Part shown: piece by piece, positions 2,452 through 53,000 of the stretch
Position numbering within the stretch: the stretch's first letter is position 1
Layout: each line of letters opens with the position of its first letter
Program-made: the position numbers and the translations under genes
Notes under the pieces: model-generated
Databases searched by the model: none
Told to the model about the DNA's origin: nothing
The model's input: the letters and a program-made list of their open reading frames with translations, nothing else
NCBI GenBank assembly: GCA_945888515.1
Contig: CAMDAD010000008.1
Span: 1 to 64,000, forward strand
DNA length: 64,000 nucleotides
Source: Akkermansia muciniphila
GTDB taxonomy: Bacteria; Verrucomicrobiota; Verrucomicrobiia; Verrucomicrobiales; Akkermansiaceae
Reading direction: 5' to 3'

Positions 2452-3081
2452 ATGGCTTTCGGGGAATCTTGGCATATTAAATCGCGTTCGCATCTTTGTG
2501 TGGTAACTGGCAAACCCTTTGCTGATGGGGAATCCATCATTGCTGCCATTTTTCCAGATCCGGAGTCTTCGGGGTGGCTGCGCAGGGATTATTCTCTGGC
2601 GGGCTGGGAGCAGCGCGATGGCGGGGAGGGCGAGAATTTTTCGCAGTGGAAGACGGTCTATAAAGCACCTGTATCCCATGAACGGGTGGAGGTGACAAAA
2701 GAAAGTCCGATTGATTTGTTGCGTCGTATGGTCGATGAAGACGAGGAGCATACGGAAAAAGTGCGCTTCATTCTCGCAGTGATGCTGGAGCGGCAAAAAG
2801 TGCTGGTGGAGAAAGACACTCAGGTGGTTCCTTCGGGGATTTTGCGGGTCTATGAGCACCGCAAGGAAGGGGATGTGTTTCTCATTCGCGATCCGAACGT
2901 GGCGCTCGATCAAGTGGAAGCGATGCAACAAGAAGTGCTCGACTTGCTAGAAAATCACGGCCGCAAACCAGTCGAAGATCAGGCTAACGAGACTGTGAAC
3001 GAAGAGGCCATTGCAGAAGAAATCCAAGCTCAGGCAGAAGGGCCTTTGGGTTCGGCGGGCGAAGAGAAGTCGGGCACCTGA
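2452..3081 (+). CDS. conserved hypothetical protein with one TG-type motif, PVC-type family
   Basis: A 209-residue soluble protein with no signal peptide or membrane segment. I do not recognise a named domain, but the N-terminal motif HLCVVTGKPFADGE (residues 14-27) followed by RRDYSLAGW (44-52) resembles an uncharacterised family I recall from Planctomycetes and Verrucomicrobia; this is memory, not a search. The middle is charged and helical and the last 45 residues are acidic low complexity. I start at ATG 2452 because MAFGESWHIK looks like the true N-terminus; a TTG ten codons upstream is the alternative. Its last 52 bases overlap the end of the convergent batD/E gene. Confidence 0.75.
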   Translation: MAFGESWHIKSRSHLCVVTGKPFADGESIIAAIFPDPESSGWLRRDYSLAGWEQRDGGEGENFSQWKTVYKAPVSHERVEVTKESPIDLLRRMVDEDEEHTEKVRFILAVMLERQKVLVEKDTQVVPSGILRVYEHRKEGDVFLIRDPNVALDQVEAMQQEVLDLLENHGRKPVEDQANETVNEEAIAEEIQAQAEGPLGSAGEEKSGT

Positions 3082-5468
3082 GGAGGGGAAACGGGAATCA
3101 AGTATTCGATGCGATCATGCGGCACCCAGCCGCGTGTCTGGCTGGCGAAAGCGATGTAAACCCAGTGATCGGTCCGGCGAATCACGCGGCAGAGCGAGCC
3201 AGCGGGAACCTCGATGACTTGGCCTGACGTCCGTGAGGCATCGGCATAGACAATCGTTTTATCAGCAACGATTACAGCTTGCTCGGAGTAGGGTGCGAAG
3301 ATCGAGTCATCAGGGTAGTAGTGCCATGCCATAGCGCTGCCGACGGCGAGCAGTGGCGAGAGCGTCAGGCAGGCCAGTGCGGCGAGGCGCAGGCGACTGC
3401 CGCGATGGGTGGCGGGAAAAATGAGAATGCCGATGACGATCATCCAGACGCAGCCGAGTAGAAGATTTTTGAACCACTCCTCGGGGACGCGTGTCAGAGC
3501 GTATTGGTAATTTGGTCGCTTGATGGTCAGTGCGCCAAACTTCCGTTCGAGGAAGCGCAGATTCTGGCTTGCTTCTTCTAGAGTGGGATCTGCGAGGAGC
3601 GCTCGGCGGTAGTAGAGTGCGGCGTAGCCCTGCGAACCCGCGCGATAGCAGGCGTTGCCGATATGATAGTGCGTCGCGGCAGAGAGTTGCTCATAAGGAC
3701 CAGCGGCTAACCACGCGGCGATGGCGTCTTTATACTTTCCATTCTCGTAGGCGGTTGCGGGACCGGTGGACGACGTTTCCGTTTCCTCAGCATGAATCGG
3801 AGAGGAGAAGCAGATCATGCCAATGAGCAGGGCAAAGGCGAGTCTGCGCAGCAAGCGAAGGATTTCTTGACGGCGATAAGAGGGCATGGGAGTGGTGGCG
3901 GATTCGGGGAGGAAGCAGGTTTGATCGCGCTCTTGGAGAATCTCCCGAACTTGTTGCTCCTCGGCATGTTGGGGGAGCCATTCCTCGATGAAACGGCCGG
4001 CATGGCGGAGAAAGTCAGCGCGGTTTTCCGATCCTCTATCGAGGGATCGCCATGCCTGGCGGCGTTGTTTTTGCTCGGGAGTCGCTTGAAAACGCGGCCA
4101 GAAATGCCGGTGGAAAATGGAGAATACCAGCGTCAGTAAGAGTACCAGCGGCACAAGGTGCCAGAGATAGGGAAGTGCCAGCGCTGAGTTAGGGCGCAGG
4201 GTAGGCTGCCCTTGGAGCATACCGAGAATGTCGGTCATGCGCTCCACCGGGATCTCTGCCGCTTGAGGGATCGCGGCGATGCTACCTTGGGAAGAGAGGG
4301 GATTGGTGGAGGGGAGAACCTTGAGCGGAATGGGCGAAGTGCTGAGAATCTGATAGGTGGCAGCTTCAGGATCAAAATACACCAAGCGGAACGGTGGAAT
4401 CATCGTTTGGCGGGCGGTAGGGCGCATGAATTGCTTGAAAGTGACAGAGCCTTGATGCAGCCGACGCTCCTCGCCCATTTCGCTGCGGGTGGCTTCGTAG
4501 AGTTTCCAGCCCTCGGGATCGGAGAGCACCGGGGCGCTCATCGAGTCCAGATTTCCACGACCGCTCACAGCGAGCTCGACATTCAGCGGGTCACCTTCGC
4601 GGACCTCTGTTTCCTCAGCTTTTGCTTCTAAGGAGAACGTGCCTACTGCGTTGATAAATCCTTCTGGGGCCGATTCCGGCAAAGGGCGGGCGTTGAGCTC
4701 CAGTGCACTAGTTTGCAAATTGAGTGGGACGGCATTCTGTTCAAAGCCGAATTGTCCGAGGACGTTCTGTAACGAGATCAGACGGATTTTTGCGGGACCG
4801 ATCGAGACTTTTCCCGCTTGGCTGGCTGCCATGGTGCTGGGGTAGGAGGCGCATTGGTAATTCGCTCCCAGAAGGATGGCATTGCCGAGTTGTGGGCGTG
4901 GTTCGAAACGCCATGCGGTAACGCCACTTCGATCAAAATCCGGGATGCCCCATTCATCGATACGAATATTGGAGGGGAAGTAGACCTTCAGTTCCACTGG
5001 GATGATTTCTCCGACGAAGGGATCGGCTTTGGCGGTGCGGAAAAAGGCGGCGTAGGGAATTGTCTCCGTGCCGATGCGCAATTCCGAAAAACTCACCTTC
5101 GTAGCATCAAATACTTCAAATTCGATGGGTTTGCTCTCGATGGTTTGTGCGCCTACGCGAAGGCTGATGGAGGGGATGGTGTGCTTTCCTACCTCGAACG
5201 AAGATAGCTGGAACTGATAAACGTAACCGATTTTACGCCCCGGGAGGAGTGTGGTGTTTGGTCCGCCGAAACCTCGAGACTGCAGAGAAGCACCAGGAAT
5301 ACTGGGCATGCGCAAGGTTTCGGGGGGCTCGGTATCCGCTAGCAGAACCTCAACGACAGTCTGCTCGCCACGTGCGAGAAACTGGCTCGACATCGTCACT
5401 TGGATCGATGCGGCACAAGCGAGCGATGGGCTGAGCAAAACGAAGATGAGTCGGAGAAATGAGTTCAT
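3030..5468 (-). CDS. batD/batE: BatD-BatE fusion: BatD-like membrane protein with TPR and SH3 C-terminus
   Basis: An 812-residue envelope protein and last gene of the Bat (aerotolerance) operon. In order: signal peptide 1-20; BatD-type beta-rich extracytoplasmic region to about 425; transmembrane helix about 430-455; a basic linker; an internal Met at 528 followed by a second signal-peptide-like helix ending PIHAEE near 560; TPR units about 570-640; two membrane helices about 660-682 and 689-715; and an SH3-like domain about 729-789 ending in a Pro-rich tail. BatD and BatE are normally separate proteins. The start is ATG 5468, 14 bases after the batB stop; the frame stays open far upstream but only as a shadow of the batB tail. 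Known Bat proteins are linked to oxidative or envelope stress; the molecular role is unsettled. Confidence 0.85.
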   Translation of the reverse strand: MNSFLRLIFVLLSPSLACAASIQVTMSSQFLARGEQTVVEVLLADTEPPETLRMPSIPGASLQSRGFGGPNTTLLPGRKIGYVYQFQLSSFEVGKHTIPSISLRVGAQTIESKPIEFEVFDATKVSFSELRIGTETIPYAAFFRTAKADPFVGEIIPVELKVYFPSNIRIDEWGIPDFDRSGVTAWRFEPRPQLGNAILLGANYQCASYPSTMAASQAGKVSIGPAKIRLISLQNVLGQFGFEQNAVPLNLQTSALELNARPLPESAPEGFINAVGTFSLEAKAEETEVREGDPLNVELAVSGRGNLDSMSAPVLSDPEGWKLYEATRSEMGEERRLHQGSVTFKQFMRPTARQTMIPPFRLVYFDPEAATYQILSTSPIPLKVLPSTNPLSSQGSIAAIPQAAEIPVERMTDILGMLQGQPTLRPNSALALPYLWHLVPLVLLLTLVFSIFHRHFWPRFQATPEQKQRRQAWRSLDRGSENRADFLRHAGRFIEEWLPQHAEEQQVREILQERDQTCFLPESATTPMPSYRRQEILRLLRRLAFALLIGMICFSSPIHAEETETSSTGPATAYENGKYKDAIAAWLAAGPYEQLSAATHYHIGNACYRAGSQGYAALYYRRALLADPTLEEASQNLRFLERKFGALTIKRPNYQYALTRVPEEWFKNLLLGCVWMIVIGILIFPATHRGSRLRLAALACLTLSPLLAVGSAMAWHYYPDDSIFAPYSEQAVIVADKTIVYADASRTSGQVIEVPAGSLCRVIRRTDHWVYIAFASQTRGWVPHDRIEYLIPVSPPQVPDFSSPAEPKGPSA

Positions 5469-5481
5469 ATGAAGCGAGAGT

Positions 5482-7449
5482 TTACCAGTCTTTGGCGGGG
5501 CGGCGATATTCGTGACGTCCAGGAGCAATGATGCCGCGTTGCAGGTCGGCATTTTCATTGAGCTTGCGAAGTGCTTTTTGCTCCTTGGTTTCGCCAGGTT
5601 TTTGATCTTTGCCATGCGTGTTGTTCGGGTCCGGTTTTTCCCCTTCCGGAGTTTTTCCATTGGGATTTTTTTTGCCGTCGCCGTCATTCTCGCCATCGTT
5701 TTTGCTCTTTCCGTCTTTGGGCTCTTTTCCTTCGCCCTCTCCATCCTCATCGCCCTCGCCTTGACCTTGGCCTGGTTCTGGACCGTCCTCTTCCCCTTGT
5801 CCCTGCATTTGCGCCTGCATTTCCTGTTGCTGTTCCTCCATTTTCTGCCGCAGTTTTTCCAGATACTTGCGTGCGACGATTCCGTTTTGTTTGGCATCTT
5901 CATTGTCTGGACGCAGTTCCAGAGCGGAAGAGGAGTGTCGCACCGCATCGGCCCAGTTGAGCAAAATGGTCTGCATTTTGCGAAAGCCAGCTGACTGTTC
6001 TTTCGGATCAGAATCTTCCGCTTCCATCCATTCCTTGATCCGGGATTGCAACATCTCCTCGAATTGCTTCTGTCCCTCCTCTTCGCCCGGGTAGGTCTTA
6101 TTATCAGAGAGCTCCATCCAACCGAGCTGAAATAAAGTATTGCTCATTCCTTGGTGCGCGGAACTGCGGATCGTGGAGTCTTCCGCAGTCATGGACAGCG
6201 AGTAGGATTGCCGTGCCTCGGCGAATTCCTTGAGTCGGTAATCGGCGGTGGCCTTGCCCAACTGCAGCGCGGCATGGTCATCGCTAAGAGGGTCTTTTTT
6301 CTGCGCAAGGTTCTCAAATAGATCCTGTGCTTTTTTGTAATTCTTCGTTTCAAGCGCGATGCGGGCTTCTGCGACTGACAAATCTTCCGCTGCGCGCGAT
6401 GGCAGTATCGTGAGGATAAAGCAAACAGCCGCCACCGAAGCGCTGCTAAAGCGTGTCAGCGGGCGCCAACGGGTACCAAGTAACATTGCACTCATTAGGA
6501 ATAGAATCGCTGGCAATATACACCACTGAAACAGCTCCGTCGCCAATAATTTTTCCCGACCTTTGAGTTCAAACGACTCCAGATCCGCTACAGCTGCCGC
6601 AACCATCTGCGGGATGTCTGAAGCTGACTGTGCAAGAGCGAAACGTCCACCGCTTTGCTCGGCGAAGTCGCGCAGCGTGCGTGCTTGCAGACGGGTAATC
6701 ACTACCTCATCATTGACATCGCGGAAACGGCCATCCGAGTAGTTTTTATCCGGAATAAAACTACCCTGATCCGTTCCAATGCCGACCGCGAAAACATAGG
6801 TGCCGGATTGTTTGATGTCGCTGAGCGTGCCTAACAGATTGGGCGAGTGCTCCTCGCCATCTGATAGGATCAGCAAGCCATTATTTGACTGAGCCGTTTC
6901 CTTGAGAGTTTTCACCGCTAGCTTAACCGCTGAGGCGAGATCAGAACCGCCGGTAGGGATGGAGTCAAAGTCGAGCTGCTCCACCGTCTCGCGCACCGCG
7001 CCGTGGTCTGTGGTGAGAGGTGCGAAAAGATAGGGCATACTGGAAAAGCCCACTACGCCGATGCGGTCGTTGGGTAGCGTTTCTAATAATTCGTAAATGA
7101 GCGCCTTCGCTTGATCCAGTCGCGACGGCTTCAAGTCACCGGCCTGCATCGAGCGCGAAAGATCGAGCAGGATGATCAAATTGCGACCACGCGTGCTTTC
7201 CCTCTGGCTTGTTCGTTCGAACTGCAGTCTTGCGATGCCGAAAATCAGACAGCTGACAGCGATGAGCAGACCGGAAAAGGCAAGCAACCGAGGAAGAGCG
7301 GACGCTCGATTGATCAAGCGGCTGCGCAGTCGATCCGCGACAAATTCTTGCCATTGCTTGCGCTTTTGGCGGGCTGCCGCGGTCGCCACTATGACGAGCA
7401 AGGGCACCAGCAACAAGAGCAACAGGAGGTAAGGATGGGCGAAGGACAT
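5482..7449 (-). CDS. batB: BatB-type VWA membrane protein fused to TPR/BatC-like tail
   Basis: A 655-residue protein. Residues 7-25 and 54-72 are membrane helices. A von Willebrand A domain follows, with the MIDAS motif DLSRS at 96-100, DGEEHS further on and an intact TGGSD loop. Two more helices lie around 320-375. The second ends like a signal sequence (PSRAAED), after which TPR-like helices run to about 520. The last 120 residues are low complexity (Gln, Glu, Gly, Asp, Pro, Lys), a composition typical of BatC. BatB and BatC are therefore probably fused here. The ATG at 7449 lies inside the end of batA (stop 7458-7460), so translation is coupled. It sits between batA and batD/E and probably assembles with them in the membrane. 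Confidence 0.88.
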   Translation of the reverse strand: MSFAHPYLLLLLLLVPLLVIVATAAARQKRKQWQEFVADRLRSRLINRASALPRLLAFSGLLIAVSCLIFGIARLQFERTSQRESTRGRNLIILLDLSRSMQAGDLKPSRLDQAKALIYELLETLPNDRIGVVGFSSMPYLFAPLTTDHGAVRETVEQLDFDSIPTGGSDLASAVKLAVKTLKETAQSNNGLLILSDGEEHSPNLLGTLSDIKQSGTYVFAVGIGTDQGSFIPDKNYSDGRFRDVNDEVVITRLQARTLRDFAEQSGGRFALAQSASDIPQMVAAAVADLESFELKGREKLLATELFQWCILPAILFLMSAMLLGTRWRPLTRFSSASVAAVCFILTILPSRAAEDLSVAEARIALETKNYKKAQDLFENLAQKKDPLSDDHAALQLGKATADYRLKEFAEARQSYSLSMTAEDSTIRSSAHQGMSNTLFQLGWMELSDNKTYPGEEEGQKQFEEMLQSRIKEWMEAEDSDPKEQSAGFRKMQTILLNWADAVRHSSSALELRPDNEDAKQNGIVARKYLEKLRQKMEEQQQEMQAQMQGQGEEDGPEPGQGQGEGDEDGEGEGKEPKDGKSKNDGENDGDGKKNPNGKTPEGEKPDPNNTHGKDQKPGETKEQKALRKLNENADLQRGIIAPGRHEYRRPAKDW

Positions 7450-45362: not shown

Positions 45363-46433
45363 TTATTCGCCGGCGTCCGGATAGGAACCTAATAATTTTA
45401 CGATTGAGCAGTGAGTCCTGAGTTCATCAAGAGCTTTCGCCACTTTGGGATCTTCGCAGTGCCCGCCAAGATCGACGTAGAAGATATACTCCCAGTCTTT
45501 CTGCTTGGAGGGGCGCGATTCGATTTTCGACATATTGATTTCGAATTGATCGAAAGACTGCAAGGCGCTGACCAGTGCCCCAGGTTTGTCCTGAATGGAA
45601 AACAGAATCGATGTGCGGTCGTTGCCGGTGGGTGGGCAGGTTTTCTCTCCTATCACAAGGAAGCGCGTGGTATTCGTGGCGCGATCCTGAATGGAGTGGT
45701 CGAGGATAGTGAGGCCGTGCAGTTCCGCGGCCAGTGCACCGCCCAGCGCCGCAGCGCCTTGTTCCGCGTTTTCTTGCGCCAGTTTTGCGGCCTTGGTGGT
45801 AGAGGAAACTTCCACCATGTCTGCCTCAGGGAAATTTTTCAGTATCCAGTTCCGGCATTGGCCAAAGACCTGCGGATGCGAGTAAAGTGTTTTGATTTGA
45901 TCGCGGGGAATCGCCGCCATGAGGTTGTTTTCGATACGTAACAAAATCTGAGCGCAAATGTGCAGTGGTGAATCGACAAACAAATCCAGCGTGTGAGAAA
46001 CGGCTCCTTCGGTCGAGTTCTCGATCGGCACTACTCCGTAGTCGGCGCGCCGACGCGCTACTTGGTCAAACACATCGGCGAAGTTTGGTTGGGAGGCGTA
46101 TTGCACCGAGTGACCAAATTTTTTGATCGCGGCTTGATGCGTCCATGTGCCTTCCGGGCCGAGGTAGGCGATCTTTAGGTCATCCTCAAGCGCGAGCGCT
46201 GCCGACATGATTTCGCGATAGATAGCGCGAATGGATTTTTCGGGCAATCGTCCGTGGTTTTTTTCGAGTAATTTTTTTAGTAGGGCATCTTCACGCTCTG
46301 GCGCGTAAATTTGGAGACCTTCTTGTTTTTTGACTACACCGACTTGGTGGACGAGGTCGGCGCGCTCGGACAACAGGTCCATCAGGCGTGAATCCACCTC
46401 ATCGATTTGTTTTCTGATATTTTCTAAGCTCAC
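45363..46433 (-). CDS. pheA: chorismate mutase/prephenate dehydratase (P-protein)
   Basis: A 356-residue bifunctional enzyme of phenylalanine synthesis. The AroQ chorismate mutase covers about 1-85 (IRKQIDEVDSRLMDLLSERA), prephenate dehydratase about 88-270 (LGPEGTWTHQAA, VPIENSTEGAV, TNTTRFLVIG), and a regulatory ACT domain about 280-350 (PGALVSAL, INMSKIESRP). The ESRP motif predicts feedback inhibition by phenylalanine. The start is a GTG overlapping the scpB stop as GTGA. The next genes downstream are a membrane protein and recJ. Confidence 0.96.
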   Translation of the reverse strand: MSLENIRKQIDEVDSRLMDLLSERADLVHQVGVVKKQEGLQIYAPEREDALLKKLLEKNHGRLPEKSIRAIYREIMSAALALEDDLKIAYLGPEGTWTHQAAIKKFGHSVQYASQPNFADVFDQVARRRADYGVVPIENSTEGAVSHTLDLFVDSPLHICAQILLRIENNLMAAIPRDQIKTLYSHPQVFGQCRNWILKNFPEADMVEVSSTTKAAKLAQENAEQGAAALGGALAAELHGLTILDHSIQDRATNTTRFLVIGEKTCPPTGNDRTSILFSIQDKPGALVSALQSFDQFEINMSKIESRPSKQKDWEYIFYVDLGGHCEDPKVAKALDELRTHCSIVKLLGSYPDAGE

Positions 46434-47170
46434 AGGGTAAGTGGGTCTGGTGATTCTGGTTGATGGTTCGCAGCATCTTCGCTGTTGGCAGCGGCAGGTG
46501 CGACGCTGGCGAGGGGAAGCTGCTCGCTGATTTCCACAGTTTCGCTGGCGGGCTCGGGGAGCTTTACTTTGCGAAGTTCGGTCGCATTCGGCAAGTCATC
46601 GATGCTGCGGATGCCGAAGTGCTCGTAAAATAATTCGGTGGTTTCGTAGAGCAGCGGACGTCCCGGAAGATCGGCGCGACCACCAATGCGGACGAGGTCG
46701 CGGTCGAGCAATTTCTGTAGCATTCCATCGCAGGAAACTCCGCGCACGGCTTCGATCGCGGCCTTCGTGATCGGTTGGCGATAAGCGACAATCGCAAGAG
46801 TTTCCATCGCGGGCCCACTGAGTCGTTCGGGCTTGCGACCGGGAAAAAGTTGGCGTACGAAGTCCCCATACTGCGCTGCCGTGTAGAATTTCCAACCTTT
46901 TGCTCTTTCTAGCAAAGCGAAGGAACGTCCACTTTGCTCGTAGTTTTCATTGAGCTGCTGAATGGCGGCGAGCACTTCTGCGCTGCCTACAGTCGCCAGT
47001 GGCGTGAGCCACTCGGGAAGTGGAGCGGGTTCATCGCCATCCTCGCTTTCACGCTGGTGCACATCCTCCGCCTCTGCCACGCGGGCGCGCACCAATCTAG
47101 CCAACTCATCGGCGGAAAGCGGTTCGCTCGAGGCGATCAACAGGGCTTCTACGATCAACGGTAATTCCAT
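46430..47170 (-). CDS. scpB: segregation and condensation protein ScpB
   Basis: A 246-residue kleisin-partner protein of the SMC-ScpAB condensin. The N-terminal winged helix begins MELPLIVEALLIASSEPLS; the middle has FVRQLFPGRKPERLSGPAMETLAIVAYRQPIT split over the second winged helix, the most conserved ScpB block, and the C-terminus is an acidic, Pro/Ala-rich tail. The start is ATG 47170; 32 codons more stay open but are not ScpB-like. ScpA and SMC are not in the window. An insertion of about 20 acidic residues near 35-55 is slightly longer than usual. Confidence 0.94.
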   Translation of the reverse strand: MELPLIVEALLIASSEPLSADELARLVRARVAEAEDVHQRESEDGDEPAPLPEWLTPLATVGSAEVLAAIQQLNENYEQSGRSFALLERAKGWKFYTAAQYGDFVRQLFPGRKPERLSGPAMETLAIVAYRQPITKAAIEAVRGVSCDGMLQKLLDRDLVRIGGRADLPGRPLLYETTELFYEHFGIRSIDDLPNATELRKVKLPEPASETVEISEQLPLASVAPAAANSEDAANHQPESPDPLTL

Positions 47171-47367
47171 AGTCCGCCGCAAGACTAGAAAGCTTCCCGC
47201 TGCGGTGCAAGCCTGCAAAAAAATTCCTCTGTCCTGCGCGCGCAAACTATTTTGGAATAATCCCATTTTTTCCCTTGCAGGATGACCGATAGACCGTTAA
47301 TGAACCACGCCTAGTCGCACGGTGAAAAACGCCTTGCTTCATTGATCCAACTCCTACCTCTACCATC

Positions 47368-48498
47368 ATGGCTGCGAAAAAAGCTACAAAGAAACCATCT
47401 GCAAAAGCGGTAAAAAAACCGGTCGTCAAAAAAGCTCCGGCCCAACCCGTAAAAAAACCCGCATTGAAGCCAGTGGCCAAACCATCGGCAAAGCCGGTGG
47501 CTAAGAAGGTGATAGCCAAGACGGCTCCAAAGACGGTGAAAAAAGCTGCAAAGAAACCATCTGCAAAAGCGGTAAAAAAACCGGTCGTTAAAAAAGCTCC
47601 CATCAAACCGATCGCGAAAAAACCTGCTGCCAAAACTCCTGCGAAACCGATCGCGAAAAAGTCGAAGGCTAAAGTGTCCGCAAAACCCGCCGCAAAAAAA
47701 GTCGTAGCCAAAGCGCCCGCGAAGCTGGCGAAAAAAATCCCGGCGAAGGCTCCTGCGAAAAAGCCAACGCCCGCGAAATCGGTGACAAAGCCTGCCGCCG
47801 CAAAAGCGCCTGTGAAGGCACCTACCAAGCCAGTGCCCGTCAAGCCAGTCGCACCCGCAAAAACAGCGAGAGTGCCTGAGAAAAAAGCCATCGTGGTGCC
47901 AGCAAAGGTTTCCTCACCCGCAACCGCTAAGAAAAGTGTCGTCAAGACGCCGATCAAAAAACCTCCTTTTGTGCCGAAACCAGCCCCTGAGCCAACCATC
48001 ATCGTTGAGCCAATCACCGATCCCAAATTCCTAGCCTTTGCTCAGAAACAAAAACAACGCTTGCTTGATTTGCGCGATGGTATCGTCGATGCCATGACTG
48101 GGTCCGCCCGCGAGGCGATACGCAGCTCCCCTGAGGGCAGTGAGGCCTCGGGCAGCGGTATGCACCAGGGCGATGCCGGAAGTGATGCTTATGACCGTGA
48201 TTTTGCGCTCAGCGTGCTTGCGAAAGATCAGGACGCTCTTTACGAAATTGAAGAGGCCCTGCTCCGCATCAAAAAAGGCACTTACGGACTTTGCGAAATG
48301 TCGGGCAAACGTATTCCCATTCCGCGCCTCGAAGCGATTCCTTTCGCTCGACTCACGGTCGAGTGCCAAGCCCAGTGGGAAAAGGAATTCGGCACGAAAA
48401 AATTCCGTCCCAGTGGGAGCGTTGGCTTCAGTGGTGGAGGAATTTTTGACGAAGATGAAGATTCTGACACGATTTCGCTTGACGAAGACGAAGATTAA
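47368..48498 (+). CDS. histone H1-like tail fused to a DksA/TraR-type zinc-finger domain with lost cysteines
   Basis: A 376-residue protein. Residues 1-205 are almost only Lys, Ala, Pro and Val, like a eukaryotic H1 tail or bacterial AlgP/HC1 proteins, and should bind DNA. Residues 218-305 form the DksA/TraR coiled-coil part, with a conserved DxxDxA-like tip in DAYDRDFALSVLAKD, and 305-340 the zinc-finger region YGLCEMSGKRIPIPRLEAIPF. The four ligand positions follow the normal spacing but read Cys309, Ser312, Thr330, Cys333, so a normal four-cysteine zinc site is not formed. The tail is acidic. DksA-type proteins modulate RNA polymerase. It precedes rpmG, rpsR and folE2. Confidence 0.85.
   Translation: MAAKKATKKPSAKAVKKPVVKKAPAQPVKKPALKPVAKPSAKPVAKKVIAKTAPKTVKKAAKKPSAKAVKKPVVKKAPIKPIAKKPAAKTPAKPIAKKSKAKVSAKPAAKKVVAKAPAKLAKKIPAKAPAKKPTPAKSVTKPAAAKAPVKAPTKPVPVKPVAPAKTARVPEKKAIVVPAKVSSPATAKKSVVKTPIKKPPFVPKPAPEPTIIVEPITDPKFLAFAQKQKQRLLDLRDGIVDAMTGSAREAIRSSPEGSEASGSGMHQGDAGSDAYDRDFALSVLAKDQDALYEIEEALLRIKKGTYGLCEMSGKRIPIPRLEAIPFARLTVECQAQWEKEFGTKKFRPSGSVGFSGGGIFDEDEDSDTISLDEDED
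47380..47436 (+). repeat. 57-bp direct repeat, copy 1, in the H1-like region
   Basis: This segment encodes KATKKPSAKAVKKPVVKKA and recurs 162 bases downstream at 47542-47598 with only two differing codons visible (ACA/GCA and GTC/GTT). Near identity at third codon positions suggests a recent internal duplication rather than selection on the peptide alone. Confidence 0.8.
47542..47598 (+). repeat. 57-bp direct repeat, copy 2, in the H1-like region
   Basis: The second copy of the 47380-47436 repeat, in the same reading frame, so the H1-like tail can gain or lose 54 residues by recombination without a frameshift. Confidence 0.8.
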
Positions 48499-48528
48499 TG
48501 TAGTTTCGCCCTCCCATCACACCAAGCC

Positions 48529-48702
48529 ATGCCACGCGACATCATTATTCTCGAATGCACCGAAGCCAAAGCGGAAGGGAAACCTACATCCCGCTACGTG
48601 ACCACCCGCAACAAAAAGAGTCTTCGCACTCCGGGGCGTCTCGAAAAGGTGAAATTCAATCCTTTCCTTAAGCGCAGAACTCTTCACCGCGAACTCCGCT
48701 AA
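48529..48702 (+). CDS. rpmG: 50S ribosomal protein L33, zinc-free type
   Basis: A 57-residue large-subunit ribosomal protein. The family core is seen in [20 protein letters not shown] and [16 protein letters not shown]. Zinc-binding L33 carries two CxxC pairs; here only one Cys (Cys10) is present, so this is the zinc-free form, as in E. coli. It lies 30 bases after the DksA fusion gene and 11 bases before rpsR. No Shine-Dalgarno sequence precedes it. Confidence 0.93.
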
Positions 48703-48713
48703 CATTAACGTAT

Positions 48714-48962
48714 ATGCAAGAAACCGAACCAAAAACAGTCGAGCGTCGCATTGCTTTCCGTAAGGCGAACCGTCGCATGACCCGCCGTCGCCAGGACATC
48801 CCTGTTGACAAGATTGATCATACCAATCCCGATCTGTTGTCGAAATTCACCTCGACCACGGGCAAAATCCTTCCTCGTCGCGTGACGGGAGTCCCAGCCA
48901 AGGTGCATCGTAAGATCACTCGCGAGATCAAGCGCGCTCGCGCCCTGAACCTCGTGCCATAA
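48714..48962 (+). CDS. rpsR: 30S ribosomal protein S18, cysteine-free
   Basis: An 82-residue small-subunit ribosomal protein. The typical S18 core is at about 36-82: DHTNPDLLSKFTSTTGKILP, then RRVTGVPAKVHRKITREIKR. It has no cysteine, so it cannot form the zinc site present in some S18 proteins. It follows rpmG by 11 bases and is followed by a terminator at 48986-49022. The rplI/rpsF neighbours common in other bacteria are absent. Confidence 0.93.
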   Translation: MQETEPKTVERRIAFRKANRRMTRRRQDIPVDKIDHTNPDLLSKFTSTTGKILPRRVTGVPAKVHRKITREIKRARALNLVP

Positions 48963-48985
48963 GCTCTTGGGTTTTTCCATTTTCA

Positions 48986-49022
48986 GGGCTTGTCCGTCAT
49001 CGACTGGGCAAGCCCTTTTCCT
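48986..49022 (+). terminator. rho-independent terminator after rpsR
   Basis: Stem AGGGCTTG/CAAGCCCT at 48986-48993 and 49010-49017, extended by CC/GG and a wobble pair, followed by TTTT and a pyrimidine run. It should separate rpsR from folE2, although read-through is possible. Confidence 0.8.
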
Positions 49023-49062
49023 TTCTTCTCAACGTTACCGATTTTCCTCTCCGATCTCTTCC

Positions 49063-49842
49063 ATGCAAGAACTCATCGATACTCAGAACGAAAAAGACGA
49101 CCGTAATCTGCCGATTGATCGTGTCGGCGTGAAAAGCCTGCGTTTCCCCGTGGAAGTCCGAGAAAAAAATCGTGGCACGCAGAAAACGGTAGCCACAGTA
49201 TCGCTCGCGGTGGAGTTGCCACAGCACTATAAAGGCACACACATGAGCCGTTTTGTGGAGGTTCTCAATTCGCATGGCAATTGCCTCGATGTCCACACTA
49301 TCCAGAGTATCCCCAAAGAGCTGCTCAACCGTCTCGATGCCCAGCGCGCGCACGTGACGTTCCAGTTTCCGTTCTTCCTCAAAAAAGCGGCGCCGATCAG
49401 CGGTGGCGAGGGACTGGTTGATTACGAGGTGCGCTTTGAGATCGATTACGAGCGGGATGGCACCACCGATTTCATCCTCACGACTTTTGTTCCCGTCGCC
49501 ACTCTCTGTCCTTGCTCAAAGGCAATCAGTGAGCGCGGAGCACACAATCAACGCGGGTTGGTGACCTATTCGATCCGTTCGAAAAAACCGATTTGGATCG
49601 AGGACCTCATCGCCCTAGTCGAACGCTCCGCGAGCTGTGAACTCTATAGTTTGTTGAAGCGTCCCGACGAAAAATACGTCACGGAAAAAGCCTACGATAA
49701 TCCGGTATTTGTCGAGGACCTTGTGCGCAATATTGCCTCGCGAAGCAATGCTCATGAGCAAATTACTTGGTATCGTGTCGAAGCCGAAAACTACGAATCT
49801 ATTCACAATCACAACGCGTATGCGGTGATTGAATCGAAGTAG
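49063..49842 (+). CDS. folE2: GTP cyclohydrolase FolE2 (type IB)
   Basis: A 259-residue enzyme that converts GTP to dihydroneopterin triphosphate, the first step of folate synthesis. The FolE2 signature TLCPCSKAISERGAHNQRG is at 148-166, with Cys149 the metal ligand and His161 nearby. Unlike FolE, FolE2 can use metals other than zinc and is a known zinc-sparing replacement in several bacteria. The start is ATG 49063; the frame extends upstream through the terminator region without FolE2-like sequence. It lies just after the cysteine-poor DksA fusion, rpmG and rpsR. Confidence 0.95.
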   Translation: MQELIDTQNEKDDRNLPIDRVGVKSLRFPVEVREKNRGTQKTVATVSLAVELPQHYKGTHMSRFVEVLNSHGNCLDVHTIQSIPKELLNRLDAQRAHVTFQFPFFLKKAAPISGGEGLVDYEVRFEIDYERDGTTDFILTTFVPVATLCPCSKAISERGAHNQRGLVTYSIRSKKPIWIEDLIALVERSASCELYSLLKRPDEKYVTEKAYDNPVFVEDLVRNIASRSNAHEQITWYRVEAENYESIHNHNAYAVIESK

Positions 49843-50056
49843 AGCGACTCATCTCACGCACAGAAATCGTGTGCATCGGAACTCAGGGTGCATTCGATCA
49901 CTCCTTCTCCATTCATTGCATGATCAAACGCATTGCATCACTCTGCTGTTGATCCATGAAGCAGAGATAAAGGATTCAGAGAGAGTGAATTTTCATGAAA
50001 ACTCGTTGACGAATGTGGGTAATGAGAGATAGGTGTGTTGGATTGCATTTTCTCCT

Positions 50057-53000
50057 ATGAGTGACGACAGCAACAGGCTTGCAGACTGGATTCAGAGATC
50101 GCTCGGTAATTCTGAGGGTATTTTTGTGCGCCTGAGTTTCGTTTTTTTTGCGTTGGCTGCGGCGTTGGTTTTTTATCCGAAAACTCTTCATGGCGCGGCT
50201 GCGGTTGGTGCAGAGGAAAGTCTGCGTTATGAGGGTCATGAAGCGCGACCGGATCGATTGATCGCGCGTTTTGTTCCTGACCTAGCTGTCTCGCAAAAGG
50301 CGATCAAAGAGAAGCTCGCGGGCTTTGGGGTGTCAATGTTGAATCGAAATGCCTCGGTGCCTGGTTTGATCATTCTGCAACTCGACAGACCAGTGGATGG
50401 GGCAGATGCCGCTGATAAACTGGCAGCCCTGATCAAACAACTCGGCGCCACGGGTTGGTTCCGTTATGTCGAACCAGATTGGATTGTGAAAGCATTGGCA
50501 ACGCCTTCCGACACAGCGTTTGCGGATGGAACTCTTTGGGGACTGCGTAATACGGGGCAAGCAGGAGGCACTCCGGGCGCTGATATCGATGCGATGGATG
50601 CATGGGACATCACTACCGGCGCGGCATCGGTGGTGGTGGGAGTGATCGATTCGGGTATCCGCTACACTCACCAAGACCTCGCTGCGAACATGTGGGTCAA
50701 TCCAGGTGAAATTTCTGGTAACGGGATTGACGACGATGCTAATGGCTACATCGACGATGTGCATGGGATCAATGCCATTACTGGCACAGGAAATCCCATG
50801 GACGATAACAACCACGGAACTCATTGTGCAGGAACGATCGGCGCCGTGGCGAATGGCGGCGGTCCCCATGTGGGGGTGGCGTGGAACGTGCGACTTATGG
50901 GCTTGAAATTTCTCTCTTCTTCAGGGTCGGGATCGACGAGTGACGCCATCGAGTGTGTTAACTACGCGGTCGCACGTGGCGTGAAAATCCTGAGCAATTC
51001 CTGGGGAGGGGGCGGATACAGCCAGGCTATGTTCGATAGCATCGTAGCTGCGCGCAATGCCAATGTCATTTTCATCGCCGCAGCGGGTAACGAATCTAGC
51101 AACAATGATTTGGTGGTCAATTATCCCTCAAATTATAATGTCGACAACGTCGTAGCAGTGGCGGCGCTTGACCGCAGTGATCGGTTGGCGAGTTTTTCAA
51201 ATTTTGGCCTGACCACTGTCGACATAGGTGCTCCTGGTGTAGCGATTTACTCTACTACTGCGGAAAATAATACGGCTTATAGTATATTTGATGGCACGAG
51301 CATGGCGACACCTCATGTCGCGGGTGCTGCGGCCCTACTGCGATCATTCTATCCCACCGCGACATACACGGAATTGAAACAGCGGCTAATGAGCTCTGCG
51401 CGTCCGGTAGCGTCGTTGGCGGGGAAATCTGTAACGGGTGCAACGCTTGACGCGCGTGCTGCTCTGACCGTTGCCGCTGATGGTATTTTGGAAATCAAAG
51501 CGATCGCTACGCCCTCGCCGTTGCGGGCAGGTTCGACTGTGAATACATACGTTACTCTAACGGATTTGTCGCCTGTCTTAGGTGCTACGGTGGATGCGCG
51601 TTTTGGAACGCAGGCTTTTGTTCGCTTGTCCGACGATGGCAACGCGCCCGATACGTTAGCCGGCGATGGAGTCTATGCTGCGGCGATGATTGTGCCCTCT
51701 GGTTCGATGAGTGTGGTTTTGCAAGTGCAGGCGAGTGTCACTGGCAAAACGCCGGGCTTTGCGGAATTTGCATTCCCAATCGCGGTGCCACCTCCCAACG
51801 ATGCTTTTGTCAATCGCTCGATTGTCACTTCTGGAAGCACGCAGACCTTTGGTAGCAACACCGATGCCTCATCGGAGACAGGCGAGCCGAGAAATCCATC
51901 GGTCGCGGGCGGCAAGAGCGTTTGGTGGTCGTGGACTGCGTCTGCATCGACTTCTGTGACTATCAGCACGACAGGCAGTTCGTTCGATACGACGCTGGCC
52001 ATTTATTCCGGCACGACGCTCAGCAATCTCGCGCTGATTGGTTCGAACGATGACTCCAATGGTGTGCAGAGCGCGGTTACGTTTTCTGCGATAGCTGGAA
52101 CGACGTATGCGATTCAGGTGGATGGCTATTCTGGTGCGACGGGTTCGGTCACGCTCAATCATCCACAGACGGGAGCTGCACCGGGGGCTCCGGTGATTGT
52201 AACGAATCCTGCCAACGTGAGTGTTCTTGTGGGTCAGTCGCTTTCGATTCAAGTCGTCGCTCAAGGAGATGCGCCACTTACTTATCAATGGTATCGTAAT
52301 GACCTGCCGATATCGGGGGCCAACGCGGCCGTTTATTCCCAAAACTCCACTGTGTTAGGGGACGAAGGTGAGTATCAGGTGATAGTGTCCAACGCGAAGG
52401 GAACGGCTTTGAGTTCCGTTGCCTATGTAGCGATCGAGCAGACGGGGATCATTCCTGAAAACGATCAATTTTCTGCGGCCGCGTTGATCACGGGAGCATC
52501 GGGTCGGATCCGTGCCACCAATCGGCTGGCGACGGGTGAAGCAAACGAACCCAATCATGCGTCTGCCTCCAGTCCGTTGGCCTCGGTTTGGTGGAAATGG
52601 ACGGCAATGGCAAATGGTCAGCTCACACTAGATACTTTTGGCAGTAGTTTTGACACAACACTCGCCGCTTACACGGGAACAAATCTTGAGTCGCTCACCA
52701 TTCGCGGATCCTCGAACGATGCGGATGGCACTTTGCAGAGTCGCACATCATTTCAGGTGACATCGGGCCAGATAATATGGATCGCTATCGATGGCGCGGG
52801 CGCACAAGAAGGGGCCATCGTTTGTAATTACTTATTCCAGCCCGATGCCGTATCGGTGCCGAATGACAACTTTGTATCTCGCATGGCGCTCGGTTCAAAC
52901 TCGATTGCGGTGACGGGAACAAACATTGGTGCCACGGGTGAAGTTGGTGAGACAAATCACATCGGTTCTTCAAGCCCGCTTGCATCGGCATGGTGGTCTT

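Follow-up and report, generated by a model that had tools for sequence, protein, structure and literature searches.

The gene at positions 47368-48498 (+) of the window, the whole 64,000-nt stretch of Akkermansia muciniphila DNA analysed here, encodes a DksA-like protein with a long H1-like N-terminal tail, and we give roughly even chances to the reading in which this Verrucomicrobiota DksA orthologue acts as a ppGpp-independent factor of the RNA polymerase (RNAP) secondary channel equipped with a nonspecific DNA tether. The frame is complete, running from ATG to TAA over 376 aa plus the stop codon, and belongs to a genome of 3.36 Mb in 54 contigs that is 97.5% complete. The architecture is widespread and, as far as literature searches show, undescribed: among the matches listed for DksA in Verrucomicrobiota or Akkermansia and for H1-like lysine-rich proteins, there was no description of this protein, its parts and design principle being already known.

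The tail occupies residues 1-214 (47368..48009, +), carries a net charge of +60 and is predicted to be disordered. The initial annotation had placed a Lys-Ala-Pro segment of this kind ahead of a DksA/TraR coiled coil, and it is indeed present over about 215 residues, with 62 Lys, 48 Ala and 41 Pro (69% in total) among the 219 codons before the domain start. Its description as Lys-Ala-Pro repeats holds for the composition and not for the periodicity; TRF found no tandem array. A 72-nt direct repeat, with copies at 47376..47447 and 47538..47609 (both +) matching each other at 92%, points to a duplication within the tail and suggests a route by which tail length changes. Among 40 script-picked, non-overlapping ORFs of at least 150 aa in the window, the 376-aa ORF is the extreme, with maxima of 36 Lys and 78 Lys+Ala+Pro per 100 residues, the runner-up values being 22 and 40. 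The second-richest Lys stretch of the window (22 per 100 residues) lies in an ORF of 971 aa that carries a BatD-type domain (3036-5948, -). Net charge falls to -4 over residues 215-340 and -8 over residues 341-376, and the acidic C-terminal end that had been pointed out earlier was found at residues 359-376 (48442..48495, +). In 71 of 137 genomes, the final 25 residues have a net charge of -5 or lower, and this short acidic end may temper DNA binding by the tail. An ORF on the opposite strand (47247-48026) overlaps the gene and is taken as its shadow; no Rfam families were found in the window. The idea that such tails are a genome-wide habit of other proteins was rejected, since the search of the genome matched the DksA-like protein alone (87 candidates scored, with itself as the one match, although composition filters may hide others). 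The HC2 profile (PF07382) gave 0 matches in the genome at E 0.001 and also 0 over cut-off in 14 controls, with a bias correction that may hide low-complexity matches.

In the AlphaFold model, residues 220-342 (48025..48393, +) form a two-helix coiled coil followed by a globular part. The AF2 model of the domain has a pLDDT of 81.6; in the full-length AlphaFold model, the tail block lacks secondary structure and has a pLDDT of about 43-56. The closest PDB folds are 4ijj (DksA2, Z 12.6), 1tjl (E. coli DksA, Z 12.3) and 6ptg (Chlamydia DksA, Z 10.7), the DksA matches span both the coiled coil and the globular part, and the model thus shows the coiled coil plus globular fold seen in 1tjl and 4ijj, by a margin that is modest because unrelated coiled coils score up to Z 10.0. 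Membership in the DksA/TraR superfamily is indicated by Pfam zf-dskA_traR (PF01258) at residues 304-335, with 39.5 bits against a cut-off of 24.9. The protein is the sole PF01258 match of the genome and, at E up to 1, matches this Pfam family alone, the CarD_CdnL_TRCF domain being absent. Scores for the DksA equivalogs TIGR02420 and NF033459 were below cut-off (44.7 vs 115.5 and 55.3 vs 105 bits, respectively), and the best NCBIfam match, the YteA family TIGR02890 (E 1.8e-20), also stayed below its own (73.6 vs 134.4 bits). We read the protein as the Verrucomicrobiota DksA orthologue.

Residues were counted in a profile alignment to E. coli DksA comprising 201 distinct sequences, many close relatives among them, and no row contains an indel between positions 74 and 139. 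The coiled-coil tip, HQGDAG at residues 266-271 (48163..48180, +), places D269 at E. coli D74 and G271 at A76. Against the DxxDxA motif of the DksA tip, it reads HxxDxG: D74 is retained, the D71 position is His, and Gly stands at the position of A76, a residue that matters in E. coli DksA. Across the alignment, position 74 is Asp in 196/201 and Glu in 5/201, position 125 is Arg in all 201, and position 76 is Gly in 197, so that the RNAP-binding residues, whose loss had been named as a possible objection, are kept at the tip Asp and R125 and changed at A76. An altered zinc finger had also been proposed, and the four DksA Cys positions are C309, S312, T330 and C333 (48292..48366, +), i.e. two Cys in place of the four of E. 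coli DksA. The combination CSTC occurs in 128/201 sequences and CCCC in 18/201, the remainder being mixed. All 30 remote loci (L228-L257) have four Cys, and the lineage of the window therefore looks derived and its zinc site degenerate.

This degeneration and the change of A76 to Gly could mean that the DksA part is inactive on RNAP and that the protein is a nucleoid protein reusing the fold, and a chlamydial orthologue is indeed reported not to complement E. coli dksA (PMC10995303, consulted in part). We regard such a loss of activity as very unlikely, given a near-invariant coiled-coil tip and D74, a domain under strong constraint (dN/dS 0-0.06 in eight pairs) and the incomplete Cys set that P. 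aeruginosa DksA2 likewise has in the 4ijj alignment. Returning to a factor that acts on RNAP, E. coli DksA and P. aeruginosa DksA2 share with the window protein the fold of a coiled coil joined to a globular part, along with R125 and the Asp of the tip, and differ from it in keeping K98, R129 and K139 and in having no such tail in their PDB chains.

These three residues belong to ppGpp site 2. In E. coli DksA, K98, R91, K139, L95 and R129 are described as touching ppGpp, and the K98A or R129A protein as retaining RNAP binding without supporting ppGpp binding at site 2 (PMC7676912, in the part consulted). In alignment to E. coli DksA, the window protein retains none of K98, R129 and K139, which are replaced by Glu, Ile and Gln. 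Position 98 is Glu in 192/201 sequences and Lys in none; position 129 is Ile, Leu or Val in 186/201, Arg in 6 and Lys in 4; and position 139 is Gln in 186/201 and Lys in 13. The remote loci have K139 in 20/30 cases, Lys or Arg at position 129 in 15/30, and K98 in 1/30. A RelA_SpoT synthetase (PF04607) was not detected in the genome of the window in a search whose controls were positive in 11/14 cases; across the phylum, the family was found in 15 of 288 genomes (14 over cut-off), for the most part in frames about 250-390 aa long. RSH enzymes are known as missing from the PVC group, in a survey that, in the part consulted, covers three Verrucomicrobia taxa (PMC3153485). As no synthetase was detected and the ppGpp-site residues are lacking, we predict from sequence that the DksA-like protein is a factor independent of ppGpp.

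The best sequence match, Chlamydia trachomatis DksA (6ptg; E 1.2e-21, profile 5.6e-33), shares these features: its tip is HQADQG and, as read by eye from the alignment, Q, I and Q stand at the positions of K98, R129 and K139. Genes for ppGpp synthesis are stated to be absent from C. trachomatis (PMC10995303, in part). Its DksA differs in that the PDB chain, 132 residues in length and matched from residue 12 onwards, shows no long tail; in this species a lysine-rich protein that is H1-like exists separately as Hc2, which in Chlamydia varies by lysine-rich pentamers, according to the portion of PMC2848022 consulted.

The view that site 2 was lost as an adaptation to RelA/SpoT loss was weakened. 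The DksA-like proteins encoded on plasmids that were compared, two from Bacillota and one each from Actinomycetota and Leptospira, all lack at least two of K98, R129 and K139 (4 of the 8 records found), and the Agrobacterium protein 2kq9 lacks all three in the alignment. The two Bacillota proteins (L291 and L294) are like the window protein in their D-x-G tip and in having none of the three residues, a resemblance to the Bacillus YteA family (TIGR02890), and differ in the absence of a basic tail. Moreover, five Verrucomicrobiota genomes (L149, L154, L182, L190 and L217) have a RelA_SpoT match and yet lack K98. Since this residue pattern is common outside Proteobacteria, it provides no evidence of adaptation to ppGpp loss, and site 2 may never have existed there. 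Dismantling of site 2 on the beta-prime side as well was also considered, with mixed results: at the N680 position, located with the E. coli beta-prime rim sequence, Asn is present in 16 of 27 readable rows (59 genomes matched, loci for 30), and Gln, Glu or Asp in 8/8 rows of the window's own family (L261-L267, L270). The omega subunit frame of the genome (L260, G000:C2, around 136903) has no obvious MAR start motif, and ppGpp site 1 may therefore be missing too.

An orthologue is present in 55 of 57 order genomes and in 275 of 288 phylum genomes (own genome counted in both). By its named relatives the genome of the window falls in the Verrucomicrobiales: the best 80 named domain matches include Akkermansiaceae and Verrucomicrobiaceae MAGs, Luteolibacter, Haloferula, Rubritalea and Akkermansia muciniphila. 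Tails were read in a sample of 137 genomes, made up of relatives from the order, the best hits in the phylum and regions chosen to span families, 10 of which were cut by a contig edge before the start. A remote set, in which 36 of the 46 genomes searched had a match, added 30 loci, for a total of 157 genomes with a readable start. Counted from the first ATG, which makes every length an upper bound, the tail is at least 30 aa in 134/157 genomes: 40/47 in the order, 22/22 among the best phylum hits, 56/58 in the wider sample and 16/30 in the remote set. Counted from the last ATG before the domain, the figure is 92/127. A net charge of at least +5 characterises 126 of the 134 tailed genomes, and a Lys content of at least 15% characterises 120. 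In line with the check proposed for homologues, tail length varies (4 to 308 aa, as upper bounds) around a conserved DksA part. With a tail common across Verrucomicrobiota, Akkermansia included, the fusion is a real architecture and not an artefact. Close relatives also keep the tail in frame, against the objection that it might be absent or frameshifted there: four of nine same-genus loci (L003, L004, L005 and L010) have a visible ATG and tails of 101-217 aa. In the other five, the start is unseen. These same-genus MAG loci (L006, L007, L008, L009 and L011) have a frame open to the contig edge upstream of the domain, which suggests that the tail repeats break assemblies.

The tail is shorter than 30 aa in 23/157 genomes, among them five small-genome relatives, several remote families and all nine rows of family f20, and it therefore appears dispensable for the core role of the family; such a mosaic of absences fits an enhancing rather than an essential role. 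In the order, all 5 read genomes of at most 2.1 Mb have short tails, and genomes with tails below 30 aa measure 1.1, 1.5, 1.6, 2.0, 2.1, 4.2 and 4.9 Mb; genome size correlates with tail length (rho 0.40, p 0.005, n=47, own included, in a statistic that ignores kinship). Tail loss in small genomes appears not to be a universal rule: in another family, genomes of 1.3 and 1.4 Mb (G200 and G254) contain open frames 398 and 343 aa long. The extension measures 44-49 aa and is barely basic in two genomes of 0.9 Mb (L160 and L161). On the tree, tail state has to change 11 times, but resolution is poor, with 63 of the 149 inner branches left open. Natural tail-less relatives offer a direct test of the role of the tail.

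Between the window gene and L003, the domain shows 0 amino-acid changes in 157 positions and 59 synonymous codon changes, and the tail 63 amino-acid and 64 synonymous changes in 208 aligned codons. Tail dN/dS is 0.09-0.26 in seven pairs, with L002/L005 left out because tail dS is saturated, and these values are lower bounds, since MAFFT favours matches in low-complexity sequence. Two pairs whose tails are equally long, L154/L155 and L151/L152, give 0.11 and 0.26. The DksA part is far better conserved than the tail, which itself looks selected in frame. An unlikely alternative is that the tail is a low-complexity expansion that arose as repeats were duplicated, does little and is tolerated on account of its disorder. 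The internal 72-nt duplication, the wide length range and the short tails of the smallest order genomes and others would all agree with it; the retention of a basic composition across many families argues against it, as does purifying selection on aligned positions, where low-complexity alignment biases dN downwards and the equal-length pairs nevertheless agree.

Downstream by 30 bp lies rpmG, for ribosomal protein L33 (48529..48702, +), which is possibly co-transcribed with the DksA-like gene, followed by rpsR, for ribosomal protein S18 (48714..48962, +); the divergent neighbour is scpB, for an SMC complex subunit (46430..47266, -). All three are Pfam-confirmed. A terminator-like stem-loop with a T run follows rpsR (48985..49016, +), a weak call with 1 found and 5.0 expected in shuffles, and no sigma-70-like promoter was found in 47150-50100. 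By tblastn with the window proteins, rpmG is downstream in 41/47 order genomes (own included) and 65/157 overall, rpsR in 68/157, and scpB is divergent upstream in 18/157, counts from short loci in which distant homologues may escape. In 10 of 13 more distant loci inspected, the next ORF looks lspA-like by eye, and the three submitted ones all matched Peptidase_A8. In Leptospira interrogans (L293), the DksA-like gene also adjoins rpmG, which is upstream there.

The conserved position ahead of rpmG and rpsR in the order, and the capacity of polycations to bind any nucleic acid, could mean that the target of the tail is RNA or the ribosome and not DNA, with the protein coupling ribosome assembly to transcription. 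We find this improbable: nine of the ten lspA-like loci still have a tail of at least 30 aa, which shows that tails and ribosomal neighbours do not go together, and the fold belongs to an RNAP factor.

Factors with a DksA fold are known to insert into the secondary channel of RNAP. In the preferred reading, that of a ppGpp-independent factor with a DNA tether, the DksA-fold part would enter this channel and adjust initiation, possibly at ribosomal genes, with no need for ppGpp, and the disordered polycationic tail would act as an H1 C-terminal domain: it would bind DNA irrespective of sequence, keep the factor on the nucleoid and make it locally more concentrated around polymerases. RNAP binding, DNA binding and the promoter effect are what we infer here; the fold, composition, predicted disorder, conservation and gene order were computed. 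The earlier proposal that the combination binds DNA non-specifically and at once contacts RNAP is thus partly supported. The Gly at A76, the chlamydial non-complementation, the 23/157 genomes with short tails and the modest fold margin count against it.

By analogy, the design is best read as that of CarD on a DksA base. According to the parts consulted of PMC8156234 and PMC9304148, Myxococcus CarD similarly joins an RNAP-binding module to a disordered basic H1/HMGA-like DNA-binding tail and an acidic stretch, and is confined to myxobacteria near M. xanthus; it differs in its CarD_CdnL_TRCF module, which binds the beta subunit, and in having the tail at the C end. CarD is reported to work with human H1 or its C-terminal region replacing its own basic tail, and to keep reduced activity without that tail (PMC8156234, in part). 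The KPAA tails of AlgP and PhaF are likewise K/P/A-rich, disordered and H1-like, and K/A/P-rich peptides derived from AlgP bind DNA; AlgP differs in combining its tail with an alpha-helical N domain, a DksA domain being unmentioned in the part of that source consulted (PMC9239181).

A KAP tail could also bind RNA or polyphosphate. AlgP associates with polyphosphate granules, where its tail is needed for granule spacing (PMC9239181, in part), and RelA/SpoT synthetase went undetected in the genome of the window; the tail might thus localise the regulator to such granules, or let starvation be sensed through polyphosphate in place of ppGpp. This strikes us as distinctly unlikely, as the AlgP tail resembles that of PhaF, which is thought to bind DNA (PMC9239181, same part).

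If a DNA-tethered, ppGpp-independent factor is the correct reading, DksA-type control in a large phylum, to which the gut bacterium Akkermansia muciniphila belongs, would operate independently of ppGpp and tethered to DNA, and RNAP factors fused to an H1-like tail would gain a further bacterial case beside CarD. A bolder version, which we hold to be rather doubtful, is that the state of the nucleoid, sensed via the H1-like tail, and not ppGpp, sets the action of the DksA orthologue on RNAP; with similar reserve, DNA compaction would thereby be linked directly to ribosomal gene transcription in a phylum mostly without RelA/SpoT synthetases.

The genome of the window also contains a GreA N-domain within a 628-aa open frame (L258, G000:C1, around 176196-176396), far longer than E. 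coli GreA and comparable in size to the chlamydial protein of 715 aa (PMC10995303, in part).
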